From the NCBI RefSeq assembly GCF_014696065.1, contig NZ_JACJPL010000011.1, positions 1-64,000 of the forward strand: a DNA stretch of 64,000 nucleotides. The letters run 5' to 3'. Source of the DNA: Leptolyngbya sp. FACHB-261 (GTDB lineage: Bacteria; Cyanobacteriota; Cyanobacteriia; FACHB-261). A model generated the notes under the pieces. That model searched no databases and was not told the DNA's origin. It was given only the letters and a program-made list of their open reading frames with translations. This document shows, piece by piece, positions 9,302-34,534 of the stretch. Numbering within the stretch: position 1 is the first letter of the stretch; each line of letters starts with the position of its first letter. The position numbers were made by a program, and so were the translations under genes.

Positions 9302-12300
9302 ATGACCTTCAAGCCTCTGTCTAAGCCTAAGCGCAGTCGTGGTGTCATCCTCACTTCTCAGGGGTGGCACAAGTTGCAGCAGGCTAAACAAGAAGCTGAG
9401 GCGGAGCACAACTGGAGCCAGCACTTCACGCTTGAGCAACTGGGGGAGCGCACAGGACTCTCGCTACACACTGTCTCCCGTATCCTCAAGCGCGAGGAAG
9501 GGGTTGATAAGCAATCACTGGAGTATTTTCTACGGGCCTTTGGCCTGGAGCTGGATAAGGGTGACTGTGCCCGTCCTGTCCCACCCTTTGAAGAACTGGC
9601 CGCTCGACAAAGTAACCCCCAGCAAGACTGGGCAGAGGCAGCGGATGTGTCTGTCTTCTATGGCCGAAGCGAAGAACTAATCCAGCTGCGTCAATGGATT
9701 TTGGAGGAACACTGCCGCTTGCTAGCCCTGCTTGGCATTGGCGGCATTGGCAAAAGCAGCCTGGTTGTGAAACTGGCCCTGCAAATTCAGCCAGAGTTCG
9801 AGGCAGTGGTTTGGCGCTCGTTGCAGAACGCCCCTCCCCTAGAAGAGCTCTTGGGAAGCGTGCTGCAATTTCTGATGCGGGTGCAGGGAGAGGACACCCT
9901 CCTACCCGAAACCTTAGATGGCAGGGTGACCAAGCTGATGGATTGCCTGCGTTCCTCTCGCTGTTTGCTGATTCTGGATAACGCCGAAACGATTCTGGGC
10001 AGTGGCAGGCAAGCAGGGCAATGGCAAGAGGGTTATGAGGGCTACGGGCAACTGCTGAAGCGAGTGGGTGAGGTGCCTCACCAAAGTTGTGTGCTGCTGA
10101 CCAGCCGAGAAAAGCCCCGCGAGATCGCCCTGCTTGAAGGCGAGCGGTTACCAGTGCGGTCGTTGCAATTAGCTGGCCTCAAGCCCGCTGATGGACGAGA
10201 GCTGTTCCGGAACAAGGGGCAATTTACCGGTTCAGAGGCCGAGTGGAACAAGCTGATTGAGCACTATGGCGGCAACCCACTAGCGCTGAAGCTGGTGGCC
10301 GCCGCAACCCACGAACTCTTTGACGGCAGAATTGCGGGGCTACTGGAGTACGCAGAGCAAGGCGTCTTGGTGGTTGAGGATATCCGGGACCTGCTGGAGC
10401 GGCAGTTTAACCGCTTGTCAGAAGTGGAGCAGGAGGTGATGTACTGGTTCGCTATAAATCGGGAGCCTATCTCTGTCGCAGAACTCAGCGAGGATGTGGT
10501 CAGCGCAACCTCAAGACGAGAACTGCTCGGTGCCGTGAACTCGCTGCTAAGGCGCTCCCTAATTGAGCAGAGTGCGGCCCGATTCAATCTTCAACCCGTG
10601 GTGATGGAATATGTCACCGAGCGGCTAGTCAAGTCGATTTGCCATGAGATTACAACCCAGAATCTAGAGCTTTTACGGACTCACGCTCTGATTAAAGCCC
10701 AGGCCAAAGACTATGTGCGCGAGATGCAAGGGCGATTGATCGTTGAGCCTGTGATGGAGTGCCTGCTTATGGCCTTGGGCAGCCACCGAGGAATTGAGGG
10801 ACGGCTGAAGGAATTGCTAGTGCAGCAGCGGGAGCAGGCTCCTCTACAACCTGGCTACGTTGGGGGTAACGTTCTCAATCTGCTAGTGGCGTTGGGCACA
10901 GACTTGAGGGGCTATGACTTCTCAAACCTCACAGTTTGGCAAGCCTCGTTGCAGGGCGTCAATTTGCCTCAAGTCAATTTCGCGCATGCGGATCTAGGCA
11001 AATCTATTTTTAAAGGGACTCTCGGTGCTGTTTTTGGGATTGCCTTCAGCCCAGACGGCGAACTGTTAGCAACGGGAGATGCTGAGGGTGGCGTCCGGGT
11101 CTGGCAAGTAGCAACGGGCAAGCCACTGTCAACCTTTGGCGAACACACAGGTTGGGTGTGGTCTGTAGCCTTTAGCCCCGATGGGCGGCTACTGGCTAGT
11201 TGTGGCGAAGACCAAACCGTGAGGCTTTGGGACGTCAGCAGTGGTCAATGTCTGCAAACCCTGCATGGGCACCAGAGTTCAGTGTGGTCTGTAGCCTTTA
11301 GCCCCGATGGTCGGACGCTAGCTAGTGGCAGCGACGAATGCTCGGTGAGCCTGTGGCAAGTCAGCAGTGGCCGTTGTCTGCGTACCCTCCAAGGCCATAC
11401 AGGTCGGGTGCTCTCAGTTGCCTTCAGCCCCGATGGCCAGACGCTGGCTAGCGGCAGTGATGAGCCCTCAGTGAAGCTCTGGGAGGTCAGTAGTGGCCGT
11501 TGTCTCAACACTCTGGAAGGACATACTGACCGAATTTGGTCAGTCACATTCAGTCCAGATGGCTCGACCTTAGCTAGTGGCAGTGCCGACGACACGATCC
11601 GCTTATGGGAAGTCACAACAGGGCAATGCCTGGGCACTCTGGAGGGGCATACTGATCGGGTACGCTCTGTTGCCTTCCACGCCGAGGGACATATCCTCGC
11701 CAGTTCCAGTGATGACCAGGCGATTAAGCTCTGGGAGGTCAGCACGGGGGAATGTTTCAGCACCCTGCGTGGGCACACCGATCCTGTCTTTTCAGTGGCT
11801 TTCAATGTCGATGGCAGCACCCTCGCCAGCGGCAGCAGTGACCAGACGGCAAGGCTCTGGGATTTCGACAGCGGTCGCTGTCTAAGAACGCTCCGAGGCT
11901 ATACCAATTCTGTCTACTCGGTTGTGTTTCATCCCGAAGGCGACAGACTGGCTAGCGGCAGCACTGATCAGACGGTGCGGCTCTGGGAAGTTGGCACCGG
12001 GCAGTGCCTAAAAACCCTGGAGGGACACAACGGCTGGGTGCTATGCGTCGCTTTTCATCCAGAGGGACATCTACTAGCCAGCAGCAGCGCCGACCAAACG
12101 ATTCGCCTGTGGGACGTGAGCAGTGGGCGCTGCCTCCACACTCTGGACGGGCACTCAGGTTGGATCCAGTCGGTCCGCTTCAGCCCGGATGGGCACTTGC
12201 TCGTCAGTGGTGGCGACGATCAAACCCTACGTTTATGGGACGTGAGTAGTGGCGAGTGTCTCAGCATCTTGAGGGGGCACAGCAATTGGGTTTGGTCGGT

Positions 12301-12979
12301 TGCCTTCAGTCCCAACGACCAGCTATTAGCAAGCGGCAGTGAGGATCAAACGATTCGTCTGTGGGACGTGAGCAGTGGCCAATGCCTGAGCACTTTGCAG
12401 GGACATGCCAGTCGAGTTCAGGCCGTTCGTTTTAGCCCCGATGGTCGCACCCTAGCTAGTAGCAGTGGCGACCAGACGATTCGTCTGTGGGACGTGAGCA
12501 GTGGCCAATGCCTGCAAGTTTTTCATGGGCATGAAAATACAGTCTGGTCTATCGCCTTTGACTCAGAAGGCCGACAGCTGGCGAGCATCAGCTTGGACCA
12601 AACGATTCGCCTCTGGGAGGTCAGCAGTGGCCAGTGCCTCAGCGTGTTAGAGAGGCTGAACAATCCAGTCCGCTCGTCCATTGCTTTCCAACCTGCCAAG
12701 CTGCAAGTGTCTCGAAAGGGTGCAAAAGTAAAGGGCGAAGATTCTAGTTCTGGAACCAGAGACGGAGCCAGCAACAGATCTACAGAACCAATGCTTGGCA
12801 GCTTACTGGTTAGTGGCAGCCACAATGGAGCGCTCAAGCTTTGGAACTCTCAGACGGGGCAGTGCCTGAAAGTGCTCAATCCTGAGCGGCCCTACACTGG
12901 CATGAATATTACTGGTGTCACGGGTCTAACAGCACTGCAGAAGGCAGCCTTAAAGACTCTGGGGGCCGTGGAAAGTTAA
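9302..12979 (+). CDS. HTH/NB-ARC STAND ATPase with 14 WD40 repeats
   Basis: A 1225-residue signal-transduction ATPase of the STAND type. Residues about 15-90 form a helix-turn-helix-like region (FTLEQLGERTGLSLHTVSRI). The NB-ARC domain starts near 125 (VFYGRSEELIQLRQW), with P-loop GIGGIGKSS at about 145-153, Walker B RCLLILDNAE near 220 and a sensor-like VLLTSREK near 262. A winged-helix region follows, then a short pentapeptide-like stretch (residues 535-570). From about 575 to 1200 there are 14 WD40 repeats (FSPDG, LASG, D-Q-T-RLWDV, GH), enough for two seven-bladed propellers. The last blade carries an insertion of about 35 polar residues. Such proteins sense a ligand through the propellers and oligomerise on ATP binding. 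The target is unknown; regulation or defence are both possible. Confidence 0.88.
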   Translation: MTFKPLSKPKRSRGVILTSQGWHKLQQAKQEAEAEHNWSQHFTLEQLGERTGLSLHTVSRILKREEGVDKQSLEYFLRAFGLELDKGDCARPVPPFEELAARQSNPQQDWAEAADVSVFYGRSEELIQLRQWILEEHCRLLALLGIGGIGKSSLVVKLALQIQPEFEAVVWRSLQNAPPLEELLGSVLQFLMRVQGEDTLLPETLDGRVTKLMDCLRSSRCLLILDNAETILGSGRQAGQWQEGYEGYGQLLKRVGEVPHQSCVLLTSREKPREIALLEGERLPVRSLQLAGLKPADGRELFRNKGQFTGSEAEWNKLIEHYGGNPLALKLVAAATHELFDGRIAGLLEYAEQGVLVVEDIRDLLERQFNRLSEVEQEVMYWFAINREPISVAELSEDVVSATSRRELLGAVNSLLRRSLIEQSAARFNLQPVVMEYVTERLVKSICHEITTQNLELLRTHALIKAQAKDYVREMQGRLIVEPVMECLLMALGSHRGIEGRLKELLVQQREQAPLQPGYVGGNVLNLLVALGTDLRGYDFSNLTVWQASLQGVNLPQVNFAHADLGKSIFKGTLGAVFGIAFSPDGELLATGDAEGGVRVWQVATGKPLSTFGEHTGWVWSVAFSPDGRLLASCGEDQTVRLWDVSSGQCLQTLHGHQSSVWSVAFSPDGRTLASGSDECSVSLWQVSSGRCLRTLQGHTGRVLSVAFSPDGQTLASGSDEPSVKLWEVSSGRCLNTLEGHTDRIWSVTFSPDGSTLASGSADDTIRLWEVTTGQCLGTLEGHTDRVRSVAFHAEGHILASSSDDQAIKLWEVSTGECFSTLRGHTDPVFSVAFNVDGSTLASGSSDQTARLWDFDSGRCLRTLRGYTNSVYSVVFHPEGDRLASGSTDQTVRLWEVGTGQCLKTLEGHNGWVLCVAFHPEGHLLASSSADQTIRLWDVSSGRCLHTLDGHSGWIQSVRFSPDGHLLVSGGDDQTLRLWDVSSGECLSILRGHSNWVWSVAFSPNDQLLASGSEDQTIRLWDVSSGQCLSTLQGHASRVQAVRFSPDGRTLASSSGDQTIRLWDVSSGQCLQVFHGHENTVWSIAFDSEGRQLASISLDQTIRLWEVSSGQCLSVLERLNNPVRSSIAFQPAKLQVSRKGAKVKGEDSSSGTRDGASNRSTEPMLGSLLVSGSHNGALKLWNSQTGQCLKVLNPERPYTGMNITGVTGLTALQKAALKTLGAVES

Positions 12980-24797: not shown

Positions 24798-26117
24798 ATG
24801 GAGATTAACCTGCAAAGATTTTTTGATGCCTGCGATCCTAGCCGGACCCTAGCAGTCGGTAAATCAGAGGACCGACAGTACTACATTGACTTTGCCTCAG
24901 TGCGGGGCGGCAAGATAATTGATGCGCTGAAGCGAACCATCACCCGCCTATCGCCGGACCGTCCAACCTGCCAGCTTTTCACTGGGCATATCGGCTGTGG
25001 TAAGTCTACTGAGTTGCGTCGATTGGAAGCAGAGTTGAAGGACCAAGGATTCTATGTGGTCTACTTTGAGTCCACACAGGATCTGGATATGGCCGATGTA
25101 GATGTGACTGACATCTTATTAGCGATTGCTCGTCAGGTCGCATCAAACTTAGAGACCGTTGGTATCCGGCTCAAGCCAAGATACTTCGTGAATCTGTTCA
25201 ACGAGATTGCCGACTTTTTGCAAACCCCTGTTGATTTTAAGTGGGAGGGAGAGTTCTCTTTGCCGTTCGGGCTCGGCAAACTTACTGCTGAGACGAAAGA
25301 TAGCCCACAATTGCGCAGTCGTCTACGACAATTGTTGGAACCCCGCACCAACGGTATTTTGGACGCCATCAACAAAGAGCTGCTGGGCGTGGCAACTTTG
25401 GAGCTGAAGGAGCGAGGCCACACGGGGTTAGTGGTCATTATCGACAACCTAGACCGGGTGGATCCTCGACCCAAACATTCAGGGCGCTTGCAGCCAGAGT
25501 ATCTGTTTGTAGACCGGGGGGAACAGTTGCGAAAGCTGAACTGCCATGTGGTTTATACAATTCCATTAGCTCTGATTTTCTCAAATGAAGCACAGATGCT
25601 GACGAATCGGTTGGGAGGTGGTGTAGCTCCTAAAGTTTTGCCAATGGTGCCGGTACAGGAACGTAGTGGCAAAACTGTTGAGGAGGGCATGAGGCTACTG
25701 CATCAGATGGTTTTAGCTAGAGCTTTTCCAGAGGCAACTTCAGCTCAGCGGCTGGGGGAAATCCACCAGATTTTTCATGAAGCCGCAACGCTAGATCGCC
25801 TCTGCTGTGTAAGTGGGGGTCATGTGCGTACGCTAATGGGGTTGCTATACCGGTGTTTACAAGAGGAAGATCCACCGCTATCCCGTAGCTGTCTAGAGCG
25901 AGTAGTCCGTGAACATCGAGATGCGTTAGCAATGGCGATCACAGAATCGGAGTGGGAGATGCTGAAGCGCGTGGTGCAGCAGCAGACAGTCAGCGGGGAG
26001 CAAGGACACGAGATTTTGCTGCGCAGTCTGTTTGTATTTGAGTATCCGGGAGAGGAGGGACGCTGGTTTGGTGTCAACCCGGCATTAGCAGAGACGGACA
26101 AGTACCGAGCTTGGTAG
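24798..26117 (+). CDS. AAA/STAND-type ATPase, first gene of a two-gene module
   Basis: A 439-residue P-loop ATPase. The Walker A motif GHIGCGKST is at residues 63-71, after FASVRGGKIIDALKRTITRL. Walker B GLVVIIDNLDRV lies near residue 211. A polar sensor (HVVYTIPLAL) and a helical lid with SGGHVRTLMGLLYRCLQ follow. The C-terminal 80 residues form a winged-helix-like segment (ALAMAITESEWEMLKRVVQ, LLRSLFVFEY). No membrane segment or effector domain is seen. It is followed 18 bp later by a nSTAND/WD40 giant on the same strand, so the two are co-transcribed. From memory, this exact pairing recurs in filamentous cyanobacteria, but no function has been assigned. Confidence 0.82.
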   Translation: MEINLQRFFDACDPSRTLAVGKSEDRQYYIDFASVRGGKIIDALKRTITRLSPDRPTCQLFTGHIGCGKSTELRRLEAELKDQGFYVVYFESTQDLDMADVDVTDILLAIARQVASNLETVGIRLKPRYFVNLFNEIADFLQTPVDFKWEGEFSLPFGLGKLTAETKDSPQLRSRLRQLLEPRTNGILDAINKELLGVATLELKERGHTGLVVIIDNLDRVDPRPKHSGRLQPEYLFVDRGEQLRKLNCHVVYTIPLALIFSNEAQMLTNRLGGGVAPKVLPMVPVQERSGKTVEEGMRLLHQMVLARAFPEATSAQRLGEIHQIFHEAATLDRLCCVSGGHVRTLMGLLYRCLQEEDPPLSRSCLERVVREHRDALAMAITESEWEMLKRVVQQQTVSGEQGHEILLRSLFVFEYPGEEGRWFGVNPALAETDKYRAW

Positions 26118-26135
26118 ATGTGAGAGGCTCCAAGA

Positions 26136-29100
26136 ATGGCAAACTCTAAAGGACGTGAGACAAAGGCTACTGCTAAAGAAATTGCCCAACGTAACGAGCA
26201 AGCCCTAGCAACTTTAGCCCGGACAATTAGTAGGCTTTGGGGGCGACGTTTTTCGTTGATTCTGGTCCGATGTAATTATGCTTGTCTACGGTCGCAACTA
26301 ATACAGCAGTTGCAGACTATACTGCCTGCTCCTATTCCTGAATTTGTAGTGCCAGATTCAGCGAAGACTCTATACACCAGTCTTAAAGCTAAATTCGATC
26401 AGAGCCAGCCTCCAGCTTTGATGGTTTCTGGTCTGGAGTCAGTGAGAGCTCTAGATGATTTACTGACTTCAACTAATTTAGTTCGAGAGGAGTTTCGTAC
26501 CAATTTTAAATTTCCTCTTGTGCTTTGGGTAGATGATCAGGTGCTGAGCAAGCTGGCAAGACTAGCGACCGATTTCAACAATTGGGGAGGGGTACCTCTG
26601 CGCTTTGAATGGGAGCCAGAAGAGTTGATTCACTCTTTGAAACAGAGAGTAGATGAGCTGTTTGTAACAGTCCTAAATCAATCGTTAGGGGGGATTGTAG
26701 ACGATTTAATCCTGAGACTTGGAAAGGGCAATGACCATCGTTGGGAACTGGAGCTAGCTCTAGCTGACTTGAAGAGCTATGGGCTGACGCCAGAACCAAG
26801 TTTGGAGGCCAGTCTGGAATTTTTTCTAGGGCGAGATGATCATGCCAAGGACCAAGTAGACTCAGCTCTGGATCATTATCAGAATAGCCTAAGCTTTTGG
26901 CAGCAGAGTAACGATCTAGAACGTCAGGGCTGTTTGCTACTCCATTTAGGCTTATGCTGGCGTTTGAGGGCAATTCAGAGGCAGTCTAAAACTGACCGGG
27001 ATCTCCAATGTGCTAGGGATTACCTGCAAGACTGCCTGGAGAAATTTCAACAAGTCCAACGGCTAGATTTAGTGGCACGATTCATTCCAGCTCTTGGAGA
27101 AGTGCTGCAAAAACTTAACCAATGGGATGACTTAGAAATACTCGCTCACAAGGCTCTAGCCCTACATCGAACTTATTCTGATCCATTGAGACTTGCCTTC
27201 GATTATGGGCTTCTGTCAGCGGTGGCTTTGGATCGGAAAGACTGGTATAAAGCTAAGCAAAACGCGGAAATTGCACTTGATACTTTGGCAAGTACTAAGT
27301 GCAGTGTTGCACCTAAGACGCAGGAGCCCAGCTTGAACTGGGTGAAGCATTATCATCGAGGACTTTACTTGCTGCTGCTGGCACAGGCGCAAAAGCATCT
27401 GGGTCAGGTCCAGGAGGCAAGGCAGAACCTAGAAGTGGCTAGAGCTGAGAGCGACCTCCAGTATGACCCTCAGTATTATTTGCAAATCCTGGACGAATTG
27501 CGACAACTTTACTTTGCTCAGAAACATTACCTAGAAGCCTTCGAGATCAAGAGGGAGCAGCGCTCGATTGAGCAGCAGTATGGTTTGCAAGCATTTGTAG
27601 GAGCGGGGCGTCTTCAGCCCCAACGACAGGCCCGTTCGTTGTTGAATCAGGTTAAAGGTCAAGAGATAGCACCTAAGGAAATCTCAGCTCTTGGCCGACA
27701 GCAGGACGTAGACCGCCTGATTGAGCGAATTAGCCGAGACGACTGCAAGTTAACAGTTATTCATGGCCCATCGGGAGTAGGTAAAAGCTCTGTAATCGAG
27801 GCTGGATTGATTCCTGCGTTGGAGCAGAGAGAAGTGAGTATTGCTGCTGCCTCACCAGTTCTGCTTCGAGCCTATACTGATTGGGTTAGAGCATTAGCCA
27901 AGGCCTTGGGGGAGACCCTCCAATATAAAGGCGTTACTCTCGACTTGGTTCCTGAGTCAACTATTCAGATTCTGGAGCAACTGCGTAAAAACGAGAGCCG
28001 AAAATTGTTAATAGTTCTGATTTTCGATCAGTTTGAGGAGTTCTTTTTTATTAATCAGGATCAGGAGGCAAGGCAAACTTTTTTTGAGTTTCTAGGTGAT
28101 TGTCTAAATTTGCTTTACGTAAAAGTGGTTCTGTGTCTACGGGAAGATTATCTACATCACCTACTAGAATTTGAACGCTTTACTGAGCTGGGAATTATCA
28201 ATAACGATGTGCTGAGCCGGAGCAATCGCTACTACCTGGGCAACTTCACACCTGTTGATGCAGAGCAGGTCATAAAAAGCCTTACAGAGCGAGCAGGATT
28301 TCGACTAGAGCCTGTACTTATTCAAACGCTTGTGACAGATCTCGCTAAAGAGTTAGGAGAGGTACGGCCAATCGAGTTGCAATTAGTGGGAGTGCAGCTC
28401 CAAGTTAAGGACATCACCACGCTGGCTCGGTACCAAGAGTGTGGCTCGAAAGAGGAATTGGTCAAGAGCTATTTAGCAGGAGTAATTGAGGATTGTGGGC
28501 CTGAGAATCAACAGGCAGCTGAGCTAGTTCTGTATTTGCTGACGAATGAACGAGGAACCCGACCTCTTAAAACACGGGCTGAGTTAGAAGCAGACCTACC
28601 ACCAGTTGCTGAGCAATTAGATCTCATCCTGAAAATTTTAGTAAAATCGGGCTTAGTATTTCAGGTGCCTGGCCTTTCTGATGACTGTTATCAGTTAGCT
28701 CATGATTATCTGGTGTCTTTGATTTGTCAACGACAAGAGGCAGGACTTCTATATGAACTATCAGCAATAAAAGAGAAACAGCAGTTCACTGAGGAACAGC
28801 TCAATCACACATTGAAACAGTTAGAGCAGTCCTTGTATCAAGAGCAGAGACAACGAAAGCGAGCAGAAGCTGCCGAGCTTGAAGTGTTGTGTTCACTAGC
28901 TCAGGCTCTACTATTATCTCATGATCAGCTTGGGGCATTGCTATCTAGTATAAAGGCCTATAAGCAACTCAAGGAGACGGACGTACATTCCATCATTCGA
29001 GCAAAGGTGTTGGATGTACTACAACAAGTGGTCAATGAAATCCAAGAGAGAAATCGTCTAGAGGCGCATACTAACTGGATTAATAATGTAAAATTCAGCC

Positions 29101-30884
29101 CCACCGGTCAGATCGTTGCCTCTGCTAGTGGTGATAAGACTATCAAACTCTGGGGCCTTGATGGCACTTTAATACGCACCCTTCAAGGACATGATGCCGG
29201 TGTTTTTAGCGTAAGTTTCAGCCCGGATGGCCTAACTATTGCTTCTGCTAGTTTAGATAAGACTATCAAACTCTGGGGCCTTGATGGCACTTTAATACGC
29301 ACCCTTCAAGGACATGATGCCGGTGTTTTTAGCGTAAGTTTCAGCCCGGATGGCCTAACTATTGCTTCTGCTAGTTTAGATAAGACTATCAAACTCTGGA
29401 GTCTTGATGGCACTTTAATACGCACCCTCCAAGGACATACAGATGGAGTCAGTTGGGCTGTTTTTAGTCCAGATGGCAAGACTATCGCCTCCGCTAGTGC
29501 TGATACAACTGTGAGACTTTGGAGCCTTGATGGTACTTTGCTGCGTACTATTCCAGCCCACGAACTTGAGCTTATGGCTGTCTGTTTCAGTCCGGATGGT
29601 CGAACTATTGTCTCTGCCAGCTCGGACAAAACTATCAAGATCTGGAGCCTTGATGGCGCTCTACTACGTACTATTCAGGGGCATAATGCTGGAATCTGGG
29701 GCGTGAGTTTTAGTCCAGATGGTCAAACCATTGCTTCTGCTAGTTTTGACAAAACCATCAAGATCTGGAGCCTCGATGGCACTCTCTTACACACCCTTCA
29801 AGGACATACAGATGGAGTCAGTTGGGCTGTTTTTAGTCCAGATGGCAAGACTATCGCCTCCGCTAGCGGCGATAAAACCATTAAACTCTGGAGCCTAAAT
29901 GTTGATTTTCTTAAAACCCTTCAAGGGCACAGCGCTGGAGTTTGGAGTGTAGGTTTTAGCAATGATGGTCAGGTACTTGCCTCATCTAGTTTTGATAAGA
30001 CCGTGAAGCTCTGGAGCTTTAATGGCGTCTCACTCGCTACTTTAAGAGGGCACGGTGGTTGGATCAACAGTGTCAGTTTTAGCCCAGACAGTAAAACTAT
30101 TGCCTCCGCTAGTATAGATCAGACTATTCGGCTCTGGAGCCGGGACGGTATTTTATTGAACACCCTACGAGGGCACAGTGATTGGGTCAGTAGCGTGAGT
30201 TTTAGTCCGGATGGTCAAACTATTGCTTCTGCTAGTTTAGATAAAACTATAAAGCTCTGGAACTGCGATGGTGTTTTATCGCAGACTCTTTATGGTCATG
30301 AAGATAGAGTTAGGTATGTTAGTTTTAGTCCAGACAGTAAGGCCATTGTTTCATGTGGTGATGATAAAACCATTAAGCTCTGGAATCACGACGGTTCTCT
30401 GTTACTTACACTTCAAGGTCACGATGATTGGGTGAATAGTGTGAGTTTTAGCCCGGATGGACAAACTATCGCTTCAGCTAGTGAGGATAAGACTATAAGG
30501 CTATGGAGCTGTGATGGAATTCTGTTGTATAAACTTCAAGGCCACACTGCTAGGGTCTCAAGTGTCGCTTTCAGCCCAGATGGTAAAATCATTGCTTCTG
30601 CCAGCAGTGACAAAACCGTCAAACTGTGGGGATGTGATGGCAAATTACTTCAAACATTTAAAGGACACAGCTCCGGAGTTACCAGTGTCACCTTTAGCCC
30701 GGACGGTAGAACATTAGCTTCAGCTAGTAGTGATTCCACAATAATTTTATGGAACTTAGGCTCTTGGAACTCAGACATTGATGCTCTATGGTGCCGAGGT
30801 TGTAGTTGGTTACGCGATTACTTGAGAACGAATCCCAACGTCACCCTTGAGGATTGCCAACTCTGCGAGAGTATTGGAACCTAG
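26136..30884 (+). CDS. TPR/nSTAND ATPase with 14 WD40 repeats, second gene of the module
   Basis: A 1582-residue protein. Residues about 15-175 look like a second NTPase fold whose P-loop is lost (FSLILVRCNYACLRSQL, PALMVSGLESV, FPLVLWVDDQVL). Residues about 215-470 are TPR-like helices. A nSTAND1 ATPase follows at about 515-870: EISALGRQQDVDRLIERI, P-loop HGPSGVGKSS (about 545-553), Walker B LIVLIFDQFEEF (about 625) and LREDYLHHLL. A coiled coil spans about 880-920. Fourteen WD40 repeats of 41 residues run from about 976 to 1545, giving two propellers, and a Cys-containing tail (WCRGCSWLRDYL) ends the chain. Several blades are almost identical, two of them perfectly at DNA level. The propellers probably sense a ligand and the partner ATPase may gate it. 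Confidence 0.85.
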   Translation: MANSKGRETKATAKEIAQRNEQALATLARTISRLWGRRFSLILVRCNYACLRSQLIQQLQTILPAPIPEFVVPDSAKTLYTSLKAKFDQSQPPALMVSGLESVRALDDLLTSTNLVREEFRTNFKFPLVLWVDDQVLSKLARLATDFNNWGGVPLRFEWEPEELIHSLKQRVDELFVTVLNQSLGGIVDDLILRLGKGNDHRWELELALADLKSYGLTPEPSLEASLEFFLGRDDHAKDQVDSALDHYQNSLSFWQQSNDLERQGCLLLHLGLCWRLRAIQRQSKTDRDLQCARDYLQDCLEKFQQVQRLDLVARFIPALGEVLQKLNQWDDLEILAHKALALHRTYSDPLRLAFDYGLLSAVALDRKDWYKAKQNAEIALDTLASTKCSVAPKTQEPSLNWVKHYHRGLYLLLLAQAQKHLGQVQEARQNLEVARAESDLQYDPQYYLQILDELRQLYFAQKHYLEAFEIKREQRSIEQQYGLQAFVGAGRLQPQRQARSLLNQVKGQEIAPKEISALGRQQDVDRLIERISRDDCKLTVIHGPSGVGKSSVIEAGLIPALEQREVSIAAASPVLLRAYTDWVRALAKALGETLQYKGVTLDLVPESTIQILEQLRKNESRKLLIVLIFDQFEEFFFINQDQEARQTFFEFLGDCLNLLYVKVVLCLREDYLHHLLEFERFTELGIINNDVLSRSNRYYLGNFTPVDAEQVIKSLTERAGFRLEPVLIQTLVTDLAKELGEVRPIELQLVGVQLQVKDITTLARYQECGSKEELVKSYLAGVIEDCGPENQQAAELVLYLLTNERGTRPLKTRAELEADLPPVAEQLDLILKILVKSGLVFQVPGLSDDCYQLAHDYLVSLICQRQEAGLLYELSAIKEKQQFTEEQLNHTLKQLEQSLYQEQRQRKRAEAAELEVLCSLAQALLLSHDQLGALLSSIKAYKQLKETDVHSIIRAKVLDVLQQVVNEIQERNRLEAHTNWINNVKFSPTGQIVASASGDKTIKLWGLDGTLIRTLQGHDAGVFSVSFSPDGLTIASASLDKTIKLWGLDGTLIRTLQGHDAGVFSVSFSPDGLTIASASLDKTIKLWSLDGTLIRTLQGHTDGVSWAVFSPDGKTIASASADTTVRLWSLDGTLLRTIPAHELELMAVCFSPDGRTIVSASSDKTIKIWSLDGALLRTIQGHNAGIWGVSFSPDGQTIASASFDKTIKIWSLDGTLLHTLQGHTDGVSWAVFSPDGKTIASASGDKTIKLWSLNVDFLKTLQGHSAGVWSVGFSNDGQVLASSSFDKTVKLWSFNGVSLATLRGHGGWINSVSFSPDSKTIASASIDQTIRLWSRDGILLNTLRGHSDWVSSVSFSPDGQTIASASLDKTIKLWNCDGVLSQTLYGHEDRVRYVSFSPDSKAIVSCGDDKTIKLWNHDGSLLLTLQGHDDWVNSVSFSPDGQTIASASEDKTIRLWSCDGILLYKLQGHTARVSSVAFSPDGKIIASASSDKTVKLWGCDGKLLQTFKGHSSGVTSVTFSPDGRTLASASSDSTIILWNLGSWNSDIDALWCRGCSWLRDYLRTNPNVTLEDCQLCESIGT
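29133..29378 (+). repeat. Perfect 123-bp tandem duplication inside the WD40 region
   Basis: Bases 29133-29255 and 29256-29378 are identical, and the next 21 bases continue the match. One unit encodes exactly one 41-residue blade. A second exact match of 67 bases joins 29431-29497 and 29800-29866, three blades apart. Perfect identity at synonymous positions shows very recent duplication or gene conversion. Confidence 0.9.
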
Positions 30885-31348: not shown

Positions 31349-32710
31349 ATGAAGCTACTTCATGTCAAAAAAGTAATTGTTGCTGACAAAGTCAGGCTGG
31401 CTGGCACCGTAAAGCTAGAATCTTCTGAACAAGAAATAGAACTTTATTTCGAATATCCTGAAAGATTTGCAAACTTCGTAAATGAAAGCGCTGATGCTTT
31501 TGTTCCTGCTTTGCTGCTACCAGCAATGAGCAAGGGTGAAAATCTAGAAATTGCAGGGTCAATCTCCGAGAAACTCTTTCGGAATTTAGAAATCATACAA
31601 AACATATTTCATCAGTGGTATCCCTCCCACCTCAAGAAAGTTCTAGTTCATGCCGAGTCACTCACGAAACTAGAAAAGAACTCTAGTCAGAAAGTGGGCT
31701 CATTTTTCTCCCTAGGCGTAGACTCTTTCTACACTTTGCTAAAGCATGTAAATGCTAAAAATAATTCTGGCCCTGCTCTTTCTCATTTAATCTATATGAA
31801 AGGTCTAGAGCGACCTTTGCATGTATATAAGCATGGCCAAGAGCAGGAGGTGATTTCAAGAGTCACGGATGTCGCTAATCAAACAGGAACAGATTGTATT
31901 GTCGGTGAGACCAATATCCGTGATCATTTTCGGCTATCTTGGGGGCCTCATTATCATGGTGCCGGTTTAGCTTCAGTTGCCCTTTCCTTGTCCGCCGGTT
32001 TGGAGTCAGTTCTAATTCCATCAACGGATTTCTATAAGAATATTTTCCCTTGGGGCACTAGTCCGTTGCTTGACCATCTGTGGTCAACCGAAAAAACGAA
32101 CGTCGTGCATGACGGTTCAGAGGCACAAAGGTCTGAGAAAATTATCTACTCCTTGGCCAAAGCGCCTCTAGCTATGAAACATCTAAGGGTGTGTACCAAC
32201 AACGCAGGCGGGATGAATAATTGCGGCACCTGTCCGAAATGTGTGAGAACGATGCTGCCTTTAGTGATTTCTGGAGATTTAGACAAAGCAACAACCTTTC
32301 CAGACAGGCTGCCTAGTAACTGGACAAGAATTGTGCAAATCAACGAGGCCCATGATCTGCCTCATGCCGAAGTGTTTTTGCAGCTCGCCAAAGACTTCAA
32401 TGCTGACAAAAAGCTCATCAAGGCCCTTGAAGACAAGATAGAAAACGGCAGAGCCGCCCTATTCTGCAAAGGCAGAAATTTTGCTGCAATACAAGCTTCA
32501 GTATTTCATTTCTATCTGATCAAACAAACCATCGATCTGATCAAGCATCCCCTCAAAAATACTTTGAAACGTATGTCAGTATTGGAGGCAGGACAGCGGT
32601 CACGCCTACGCCAGTCTTTAAGAGCGATGCTCAGCCTCGGTAAACGCGGGCCAAGTCGTCAACTTGAAGAACCTGCCATGCCTTCAGAGCCCACAACCAG
32701 AGAAGCTTGA
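31349..32710 (+). CDS. QueC-like PP-loop ATPase of unknown substrate
   Basis: A 453-residue protein with the features of a PP-loop (N-type ATP pyrophosphatase) enzyme. An all-beta N-terminal domain (residues 1-100) is followed by the nucleotide motif FFSLGVDSFYTLL, equivalent to SGGxDS, near residue 120. A long alpha/beta core comes next. A zinc-binding-like cluster, CTNNAGGMNNCGTCPKCVRTM, lies near residues 285-305 and resembles the four-cysteine site of 7-cyano-7-deazaguanine synthase (QueC). The C-terminal 130 residues are helical and basic. It is too long and divergent to be QueC itself. It probably adenylates a carboxylate or amide of an unknown metabolite. The next gene is a glycosyltransferase on the opposite strand, which hints at glycan chemistry. 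Start chosen from GGAAAG upstream. Confidence 0.65.
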   Translation: MKLLHVKKVIVADKVRLAGTVKLESSEQEIELYFEYPERFANFVNESADAFVPALLLPAMSKGENLEIAGSISEKLFRNLEIIQNIFHQWYPSHLKKVLVHAESLTKLEKNSSQKVGSFFSLGVDSFYTLLKHVNAKNNSGPALSHLIYMKGLERPLHVYKHGQEQEVISRVTDVANQTGTDCIVGETNIRDHFRLSWGPHYHGAGLASVALSLSAGLESVLIPSTDFYKNIFPWGTSPLLDHLWSTEKTNVVHDGSEAQRSEKIIYSLAKAPLAMKHLRVCTNNAGGMNNCGTCPKCVRTMLPLVISGDLDKATTFPDRLPSNWTRIVQINEAHDLPHAEVFLQLAKDFNADKKLIKALEDKIENGRAALFCKGRNFAAIQASVFHFYLIKQTIDLIKHPLKNTLKRMSVLEAGQRSRLRQSLRAMLSLGKRGPSRQLEEPAMPSEPTTREA

Positions 32711-32740: not shown

Positions 32741-34429
32741 CTATCCTCGCTCCCTTACCAATTTCCAGAGTGGTCGGTCAGGCATATTAAAACCAGGTTT
32801 TAGATCAGTGGCGTGCTCGTAGATAAGCTCTGATCTAAAGCCTTGTGCTGCTTCGAGCCTCTGTCGTAACTCCTCAGAAGGCTTGAAGAGGAATATCTCA
32901 TTGAAGCCAGCAGGAATTTGAGGAGCTTCGTTGGGCTCAAACAGCAATTGAAACTGTACGTCCGGCTTAAGCAAATGGGCAAGAGGCATCATATAGTTTC
33001 CGAGGGTGCCTGCTTTGGCTGTCGCTCGAAAAATTACAAGGGGGCGATCAACCTTGTTAATAATGCGACTGATTGAGTAGGTGTCATAGTTGTGAATTTT
33101 GGTCCACCAGGTCTCTGCTGGAGAACTCACTGCACAAGACAAAACGCCAACCGAGAATAGAACAACCAGGCCGATCTGCCACGACTTCTGCTGCCACCTC
33201 TTGCCAGAACTGAGCTTGATTTGCGTAGCAATGCAGTAGGCAACAGCCAACTCGATGCCTAGCAGGCAAGGAATGAAATACCGAGTCATGCCCGAGCGCT
33301 GTCCCCCTGAAACCAAATCTGGCAGGATTAAAGCTAACGCTGTAACTCCTATTAGGGCCAAAATAAATAACCAGGCTCGTTTGGGCGCTCCGCGGCAGAG
33401 AAAGTAGATTGAATAGCTAACTAAAATTACGATTGGAACAATCAAATAAAGCAGAGGATCACGAAAGTTTAGAAGATAGCGACAATGGCGGCTATCTACA
33501 GGGAAACACCAGCCCCGATCCCAGTCGAAGAAGATACGGCTAAGGCTAAGCATCCAAGATTTAACCATCGCCTCTAGACTGGCTGGTGTATAGGCCCAAG
33601 ATGTCATTCCCTTGATGCTAGAGCGGTTGGAGAAAGCCACCAAAACCCAGGGAAGAAATGCTAAGGCTCCCACCAATGATGCAAGAATATAAGCGGTCAC
33701 CGTTTTAGTTAAACGAAAACCTTCTAGAGCCAATACATAGATCCCGTGGCTCAAGCTAACCAGTACTGAAAAGAGAAACGAATAAAGCCCTAAGGCCATC
33801 GCTATTGCATACATTCCCCAGCTGAGTTTAGTTTGAAGTCGTATTGCTCGTAGTAAGGCAACACTAGACAGTAAAGTTGTGACTGTCCACAAACTGTAGG
33901 GGCGAGCTTCCTGAGCGTATAGTACATGGAAAGGCGAAATGGCTAACAGGCCCACAGCTACCCATGCCACTGCTGGGGAGTCAAACAATTCTCGACACAG
34001 CCAATAAATGCAGGGAAAAGCCAGTAAGCTAATCAGCGCTGACAGGCTTCTGGTTGCCGTTACGGAATTGCCAAACCACTGTGTCCACAGCCGAATCAGC
34101 ACGAAATAAAGTGGTGTATGCTGAGGTTCTTCAATTGCTAGTCCTCTCAGCGTATCAACCATTCCTTTTTCAGGATTAAGACGTTGATACTTCAATAAAT
34201 CTTCGGTGCTAACCTCGCGCTTGTCGCGTAATTCTTGGATAACTTCTGGTTCCGTATAACCAGCAATTCTTAAGGAGGTAAAGTTCTCGTCAATCCAGTA
34301 AACTTTCCGATCGAGATGCACAAATCGGAAGAAGATACCCAAGATTAACAAGATAATGACTAGCAGTTGCAGTTGCTTTGATACAGGTTTCGATACAGGC
34401 TGCCTACTCTTGGTCGATAGATCTAGCAT
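32741..34429 (-). CDS. GT39/PMT-type membrane glycosyltransferase
   Basis: A 562-residue polytopic enzyme of the GT-C fold (PMT/ArnT-like), which transfers a sugar from a polyprenyl-phosphate donor outside the membrane. After TM1 (LLVIILLILGIFF) comes the catalytic acidic motif YWIDENFT (Asp-Glu), a loop with HTPLYFVLIRLW, then some eleven TM helices to about residue 440. A periplasmic C-terminal domain of about 120 residues follows. RPYSLWTV and HVLYAQEARPY are typical of this family. The ATG at 34429 is preferred to a GTG three codons upstream. It is convergent with the PP-loop gene. The acceptor is unknown. Confidence 0.83.
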   Translation of the reverse strand: MLDLSTKSRQPVSKPVSKQLQLLVIILLILGIFFRFVHLDRKVYWIDENFTSLRIAGYTEPEVIQELRDKREVSTEDLLKYQRLNPEKGMVDTLRGLAIEEPQHTPLYFVLIRLWTQWFGNSVTATRSLSALISLLAFPCIYWLCRELFDSPAVAWVAVGLLAISPFHVLYAQEARPYSLWTVTTLLSSVALLRAIRLQTKLSWGMYAIAMALGLYSFLFSVLVSLSHGIYVLALEGFRLTKTVTAYILASLVGALAFLPWVLVAFSNRSSIKGMTSWAYTPASLEAMVKSWMLSLSRIFFDWDRGWCFPVDSRHCRYLLNFRDPLLYLIVPIVILVSYSIYFLCRGAPKRAWLFILALIGVTALALILPDLVSGGQRSGMTRYFIPCLLGIELAVAYCIATQIKLSSGKRWQQKSWQIGLVVLFSVGVLSCAVSSPAETWWTKIHNYDTYSISRIINKVDRPLVIFRATAKAGTLGNYMMPLAHLLKPDVQFQLLFEPNEAPQIPAGFNEIFLFKPSEELRQRLEAAQGFRSELIYEHATDLKPGFNMPDRPLWKLVRERG

Positions 34430-34534
34430 GACTATCACTGGCTATACGGTATCGAGCATCCTTCGGATACCCATCATTACTACCAGAAACCTTCTGGAAT
34501 GACTGCTAGATCACAAAACGAAATATGAGCGCAG

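Follow-up and report, generated by a model that had tools for sequence, protein, structure and literature searches.

An undescribed QueC-superfamily branch with genomic linkage to polysaccharide pyruvyl transferases

Introduction

What does a QueC-like PP-loop enzyme do when no queuosine gene accompanies it? The question is raised by a gene at positions 31349..32710 (+ strand) of the first 64,000 nucleotides of contig NZ_JACJPL010000011.1, the whole stretch that we analysed and call the window. It comes from the 6.9 Mb genome of Leptolyngbya sp. FACHB-261, which the kinship of the matches marks as cyanobacterial. QueC itself takes a carboxylate to an amide and on to a nitrile in an ATP-dependent reaction with ammonia (PMC13329287). 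Members of the QueC family have recently been found to carry out an unexpected reaction, the deazaguanylation of proteins, in CBASS, and the same has been proposed for Qat defence. An earlier note made by a model from the sequence alone placed the window protein outside the queuosine pathway and thought a novel substrate plausible, with defence relatives of QueC and an adjoining membrane glycosyltransferase as its pointers.

Results

The window gene encodes a distant relative of QueC

The gene starts with the ATG at 31349 and, with the stop codon counted in its end, encodes 453 amino acids. A second copy lies on another contig of the same genome (70% identity over residues 1–415), and genome G360, which holds the closest relative from another genome, has a homologue 68% identical to the window protein. 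For the window gene, the second copy and the homologues in G360 and G511, dN was 0.21–0.37 and dS was at least 1.7 or saturated; the window gene is therefore under purifying selection. A chance open reading frame can be discounted because of the two close homologues and a dN of ~ 0.21 set against such dS values.

The window protein had no meaningful match among the Pfam, NCBIfam or PADLOC models. The Pfam QueC model (PF06508) did not match it and matched 7/23 relatives weakly (best, 0.0032), and a PDB sequence search gave no match with the protein and only weak PP-loop matches with the profile. The likeness to QueC that the earlier note had seen emerged from hhalign comparison with cyanobacterial QueC, which aligned the region from the PP-loop to the Cys4 cluster with a probability of 90 and an E-value of 1.4e-6. 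In this alignment K264 falls on the invariant K172 of the cyanobacterial QueC and all four cysteines are paired.

The PP-loop reads SLGVDS instead of SGGxDS, as the earlier note had said (residues 121–126, 31709..31726, +), and belongs to a family consensus S-x-G-x-D-S. It is followed by G152 (31802..31804, +), T188-N189 of a [TS]N family motif (31910..31915, +), R261-x-x-K264 (32129..32140, +) and the four-cysteine cluster that the note had likened to that of QueC, C282-x9-C292-x2-C295-x2-C298 (NCGxCxKC; 32192..32242, +). Among 64 aligned sequences G123, G152, N291 and the four cysteines are invariant, D125, N189, K264 and K297 are each found in 63, and S121 and R261 in 60. The second loop position is variable (G, L, S, A, C or R among relatives), so that SGGxDS is found in 40/75 family proteins and S-x-G-x-D-[STA] in 71/75; the SLGVDS form is inherited within the four-member clade of the window protein. 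All 75 proteins have the cysteine cluster, with a variable first spacing that in the window protein is C(x)9CxxCxxC compared with C(x)8CxxCxxC in QueC, the two clusters being aligned. The putative catalytic skeleton, made up of SxGxDS, N189, R261, K264 and the four cysteines, is retained and near-invariant. The Cys4 site is predicted to hold zinc, carried over from QueC and QatC.

What distinguishes the family from QueC is the loss, in essentially all members, of the motifs that recognise the 7-deazaguanine. Three substrate motifs have been defined by Libby et al (PMC13329287). YxQxHxxE and VPxRN occur in none of the 75 family proteins and YPDC in two of them, as YxDC, whereas all three were present in 10/10 cyanobacterial QueC sequences. 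The family also differs from QueC in two extra regions and in a gene context of polysaccharide biosynthesis, while sharing its PP-loop Rossmann domain, the Cys4 cluster column for column and the lysine K264/K172. The window genome has its own QueC on contig C16, with QueD-family genes on C16 and C23 and no que gene near 31349–32710, so the placement outside the queuosine pathway held. Because the fold and profile are QueC-like, the substrate motifs are missing and the genome has its own QueC elsewhere, the window protein is a member of the QueC superfamily whose substrate is probably a different one. It is a distant relative rather than a QueC proper, which agrees with the novel substrate that the earlier note had thought plausible. 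The family, undescribed and unnamed, is a widespread QueC-superfamily branch and, judged by its residues, apparently catalytically intact.

Predicted structure and comparison with known PP-loop families

An AlphaFold2 model of the full protein from a 15-sequence input had an overall pLDDT of 84. The N-terminal domain (residues 1–106, 31349..31666, +) is predicted as beta-beta-beta-alpha-alpha-beta-alpha-beta with a pLDDT of ~ 95 (94.6 for the domain alone), and a Foldseek search of the PDB with this domain gave no convincing fold match (best E-value, 0.073). A Rossmann/PP-loop domain at ~ 116–310 follows, and the protein ends in a helical tail (residues 330–453, 32336..32707, +) whose sequence varies among relatives, with helices at 336–349 and 354–429, disorder at 432–453 and a pLDDT of ~ 68–90 in the C-terminal region. 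With the full model, Foldseek returned Cap9 from the PDB (9nto; probability 0.96, TM 0.62 normalised to Cap9), YcfA, and phage 7-cyano-7-deazaguanine synthases from the viral set (probability 0.99–1.00), all of them without an E-value below 0.001. The structure comparison that the earlier note had proposed thus points to a QueC-type core.

The N-terminal domain and the tail had been described in the earlier note as not occurring in QueC. They are indeed absent from canonical QueC, but QatC, too, is extended at both ends, by an alpha/beta part at the N-terminus and by three helices at the C-terminus (PMC13279940). QatC, from the qatABCD defence system (cluster 2 of PMC13329287), resembles the window protein further in its length of ~ 450 residues, its QueC core and its Cys4 cluster, and neither has the QueC substrate motifs. 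It differs in its zinc motif, which is C(x)19C in QatC and C(x)9C in the window protein. The QatC profile did not match the window protein and matched one relative at 0.071. An apparent homology of the N-domains to that of QatC in the full-length profile alignment was gone when the N-domains alone were compared, their score being no better than that of column-shuffled controls. Cap9 of type IV CBASS is the best plausible Foldseek match; in contrast to the family, Cap9 is minimal in size (~ 185 residues), retains the QueC motifs and has a CD-NTase as the target of its modification (PMC13329287).

The WbpG-type N-sugar amidotransferases, which form cluster 5 of PMC13329287, are PP-loop enzymes of surface polysaccharide biosynthesis, the setting presumed for the family; their cysteine motif, CxxC(x)6CxC, has another order along the sequence (PMC13329287), and the window protein had no NCBIfam match. 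Asparagine-synthetase-type enzymes (PF00733) share the ATP-dependent amidation of a carboxylate that we propose for the family, and an apparently glutaminase-dead relative of theirs neighbours the family gene in five loci, whereas the family itself lacks a glutaminase domain, and neither PF00733 nor GATase_7 matched the window protein or its relatives. DUF6395 (PF19932) looks like a further PP-loop family, one without a described function. It matched 12/23 relatives weakly (best, 2.5e-4; 20.7–23.1 bits against a cut-off of 25) and did not match the window protein; a cyanobacterial member at 1408–2700 of locus L077 has an SNGNDS loop and a cysteine cluster. A literature search found no paper on DUF6395.

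The family is sparse and spread over at least seven phyla

By tblastn and profile searches the family was found in at least seven phyla. It was present in 17/386 genomes sampled across the Cyanobacteriota and 18/390 sampled in the class, and in 7/299 Pseudomonadota genomes, one of these being the known-positive centre genome of the sample. Copies in Bacillota lie on Priestia plasmids, where they are annotated as “hypothetical protein”; the other phyla are Planctomycetota, Acidobacteriota, Spirochaetota and Verrucomicrobiota. Several genomes hold two to four copies. Such a sparse spread with multiple copies is what an accessory gene subject to lateral exchange would be expected to show. Phage records gave no match, and a scan of genome contigs with the single protein found nothing. 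The genome search succeeded with subgroup alignment A2, whose loci were sampled from one linkage-rich clade.

Family genes lie next to polysaccharide pyruvyl transferase genes

Which genes accompany the family? A gene of the polysaccharide pyruvyl transferase type (PF04230) was at most three genes away in 26/69 loci and directly adjacent in 18; Pfam confirmed representatives of these genes. After removal of near-identical loci, 25 such genes remained at distances of 1–3, in 24/65 loci, and there were none at distances of 4–8 (Fisher p 2.4e-9). GT2 and GT4 glycosyltransferases were evenly spread in the same loci (p 0.20 and 0.16), so the link is specific and not merely a by-product of polysaccharide clusters. 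PF04230 was also the most frequent Pfam family when same-strand genes up to two positions away were counted (20/126). These figures take mechanical open reading frames as the genes of unannotated loci, and the pyruvyl transferase labels come in part from an iterated HMM, with Pfam confirming 20 among the 126 neighbours scanned on the same strand. The linkage is present in most deep clades of the family tree, where it requires at least 13 changes, and the linked transferases fall into at least three distinct subfamilies. The earlier note had named linkage with glycosyltransferase or polysaccharide genes as support for its reading. That linkage is strong, with the pyruvyl transferase and not the neighbour it had named as the partner.

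The closest case is G360, in which the pyruvyl transferase gene lies 33 nt upstream on the same strand (E-value, 1.3e-35). A pyruvyl transferase 59% identical to it is encoded in the window genome on contig C1, amid glycosyltransferase-like genes and elsewhere than either QueC-like copy, both of which are unlinked to a pyruvyl transferase. In the less biased samples the link was found in ~ 11/33 loci of the cyanobacterial phylum and in 0/11 Pseudomonadota loci, and most loci had no pyruvyl transferase within reach. Pragia has the family gene and no PF04230 gene anywhere in its genome. From this and the Pseudomonadota loci it follows that the transferase is not obligatory and that a pyruvate ketal is not the sole or universal substrate. 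UDP-sugar dehydrogenase genes were considered as an alternative source of the carboxylate and set aside, as they are neighbours in three loci only; Pragia has a UDP-glucose dehydrogenase gene nearby.

Other neighbours and the surroundings of the window gene

A gene for an asparagine-synthetase-like protein of ~ 600 residues directly precedes the family gene, overlapping it or nearly so, in five loci (L051, 8160–9959; L038, 7680–9485; L140, 10078–11880; L141, 6531–8327; L144, 1452–3274, where the protein is in two pieces). In four of the five, the pyruvyl transferase gene stands before it. The asparagine-synthetase-like protein keeps SGGxDS and starts with MANF instead of MC, from which its glutaminase site appears to be lost. 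Lacking the glutaminase cysteine, it is a second possible new amide ligase. Other loci have genes for TupA-like or sugar-transfer ATP-grasp (ATPgrasp_ST) proteins, GNAT proteins, sugar flippases, sulfotransferases and O-antigen ligases.

The window copy does not lie inside a polysaccharide cluster. The neighbours scanned there encode a PMT_2 membrane glycosyltransferase, a transketolase, a NAD kinase, an AAA ATPase and an nSTAND1-WD40 protein. The glycosyltransferase gene does adjoin the QueC-like gene, as the earlier note had observed (32741..34438, −; PF13231, E-value 1.9e-13), but it is convergent with it and was rejected as a conserved partner, since it recurs only at two other loci of one lineage (L152 and L153). 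Just upstream, on the same strand as the QueC-like gene, 24798–30884 encodes the AAA ATPase and then the large nSTAND1-WD40 protein. A second WD40 protein is encoded at 9302–12979, and a NACHT-pentapeptide gene lies near the second copy in this genome. The AAA ATPase has a weak KAP match (1.2e-4). With respect to qat partners, the scanned window neighbours include no TatD-like gene and no KAP match beyond this weak one; QatB has no Pfam model.

A possible role in amidation of acidic sugars

PF04230 enzymes add an acidic pyruvate group, and with it a carboxylate, to sugars. The adjacency to such a gene in many bacteria makes an ATP-driven modification of an acidic group on a cell-surface glycan, and not of a tRNA base, the probable activity. 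We tentatively propose that the family works in the biosynthesis of extracellular polysaccharide (or of a glycolipid or glycopeptide) and that it could well be an ATP-dependent, carboxylate-activating enzyme that forms an amide on an acidic sugar. The SxGxDS loop would bind ATP as in QueC, the carboxylate would be adenylated in a QueC-like manner, and ammonia or another amine would then attack it to give the amide. The family protein has no glutaminase domain, so free ammonia would be used, as in QueC. In the most speculative step, the carboxylate would belong to an acidic sugar unit, namely to a pyruvate ketal put there by the linked transferase or to a uronic acid. Since the commonest conserved neighbour adds a carboxylate to sugars and other neighbours in several loci form amides (the TupA-like, sugar-transfer ATP-grasp and asparagine-synthetase-like proteins), the most economical reading is that an acidic sugar is amidated. 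Counted against the proposal are the departure of SLGVDS from SGGxDS, the unlinked window copy and the many loci without a PF04230 link.

The same surroundings could accommodate other chemistry, in which a sulfur donor, an amino acid or an amine attacks (yielding a thiocarboxylate, a WbpG-like amidine or a peptidyl decoration) or an amide is taken to a nitrile as in the second step of QueC. PP-loop enzymes do employ several nucleophiles, some loci hint at amino-acid ligation through their TupA-like ATP-grasp, ATPgrasp_ST and GNAT neighbours, and the adjoining asparagine-synthetase-like protein could form the amide first. However, the four conserved cysteines have the zinc arrangement of QueC and not the three-cysteine iron-sulfur pattern of LarE (PMC13329287), and the motif of WbpG-type enzymes is a different one (PMC13329287); we regard such chemistry as possible but somewhat unlikely. 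It is improbable that the family couples a small carboxylated compound to a partner protein in the manner of QatC or Cap9, possibly in defence. The order of N-terminal extension, QueC core and C-terminal helices is that of QatC (PMC13279940), and the nSTAND1-WD40 gene in the window and the NACHT-pentapeptide gene near the second copy would fit. Yet the window protein has no PADLOC match, a single relative matches QatC at 0.071, homology of the N-domains is undetectable in the profile test with shuffled controls, a gap of ~ 460 bp separates the STAND gene from the window gene, and the neighbourhoods are those of polysaccharide genes and not of qatABD or a CD-NTase. The defence link drawn in the earlier note accordingly found no backing, with polysaccharide genes dominating the Pfam matches of the neighbours.

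Loss of catalysis or a regulatory function, in the SLGVDS subgroup if not more widely, would explain why the second loop position varies among G, L, S, A, C and R and why one relative from a small-genome lineage has SRGISS. This is rather improbable given the strong purifying selection and the near-invariance of G123, D125, N189, K264 and the Cys4 cluster throughout the family, the SLGVDS clade included. An ordinary QueC or other 7-deazaguanine enzyme, to which the fold and the Cys4 cluster would be suited, is very hard to reconcile with the absence of all three substrate motifs, the true QueC elsewhere in the genome and the lack of que neighbours.

It is possible, though somewhat unlikely, that the QueC scaffold has here another major use beside nucleobase synthesis and protein conjugation, in which a pyruvate ketal or uronic acid of bacterial surface polysaccharide has its carboxylate converted to the amide, or on to the nitrile, at the expense of ATP. 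We know of no QueC-made sugar decoration described so far. A literature search found no paper that joins a PP-loop protein with a pyruvyltransferase. The 2026 survey of PF06508, whose clusters cover 98.5% of the members, makes no mention of pyruvyl transferases or polysaccharide (PMC13329287). A branch tied to pyruvyl transferase would mean a glycan-modification role for the QueC scaffold and an unrecognised change to acidic surface sugars, for which the compact two-gene operon of family gene and pyruvyl transferase offers a test case.

Fusions, tandem copies and a small plasmid record

In a small-genome lineage from another class of the cyanobacterial phylum, family members carry a fused D-alanyl-D-alanine carboxypeptidase-like domain (L045, 9430–11292, PF00768 at 1.8e-22; L046, 8292–10154; L047, 9980–11848; L050, 2834–4705). 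By eye, the catalytic serine of SxxK seems to be missing from the fused domain, and a gene for a matrixin-like metalloprotease follows in three of these four loci. A divergent pyruvyl transferase gene adjoins the L048 copy of this lineage (1.8e-12), and none was found beside the L045–L047 copies. A Paracoccus protein (L005) that by eye suggested a fusion to pyruvyl transferase was rejected, since Pfam gave an E-value of only 0.21 and hhalign nothing. The Priestia record NZ_CP130479.1 (L006) is 2.6 kb long and listed as a circular plasmid; its two annotated genes are a truncated and an intact family copy, it has no annotated replication gene and is perhaps only part of a larger plasmid, fragmented in assembly. 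Three tandem family copies occur in two related cyanobacteria (L152, 7457–11520; L153, 6869–10633), where they adjoin a TMEM260/PMT-like glycosyltransferase gene and a GUN4-like gene.
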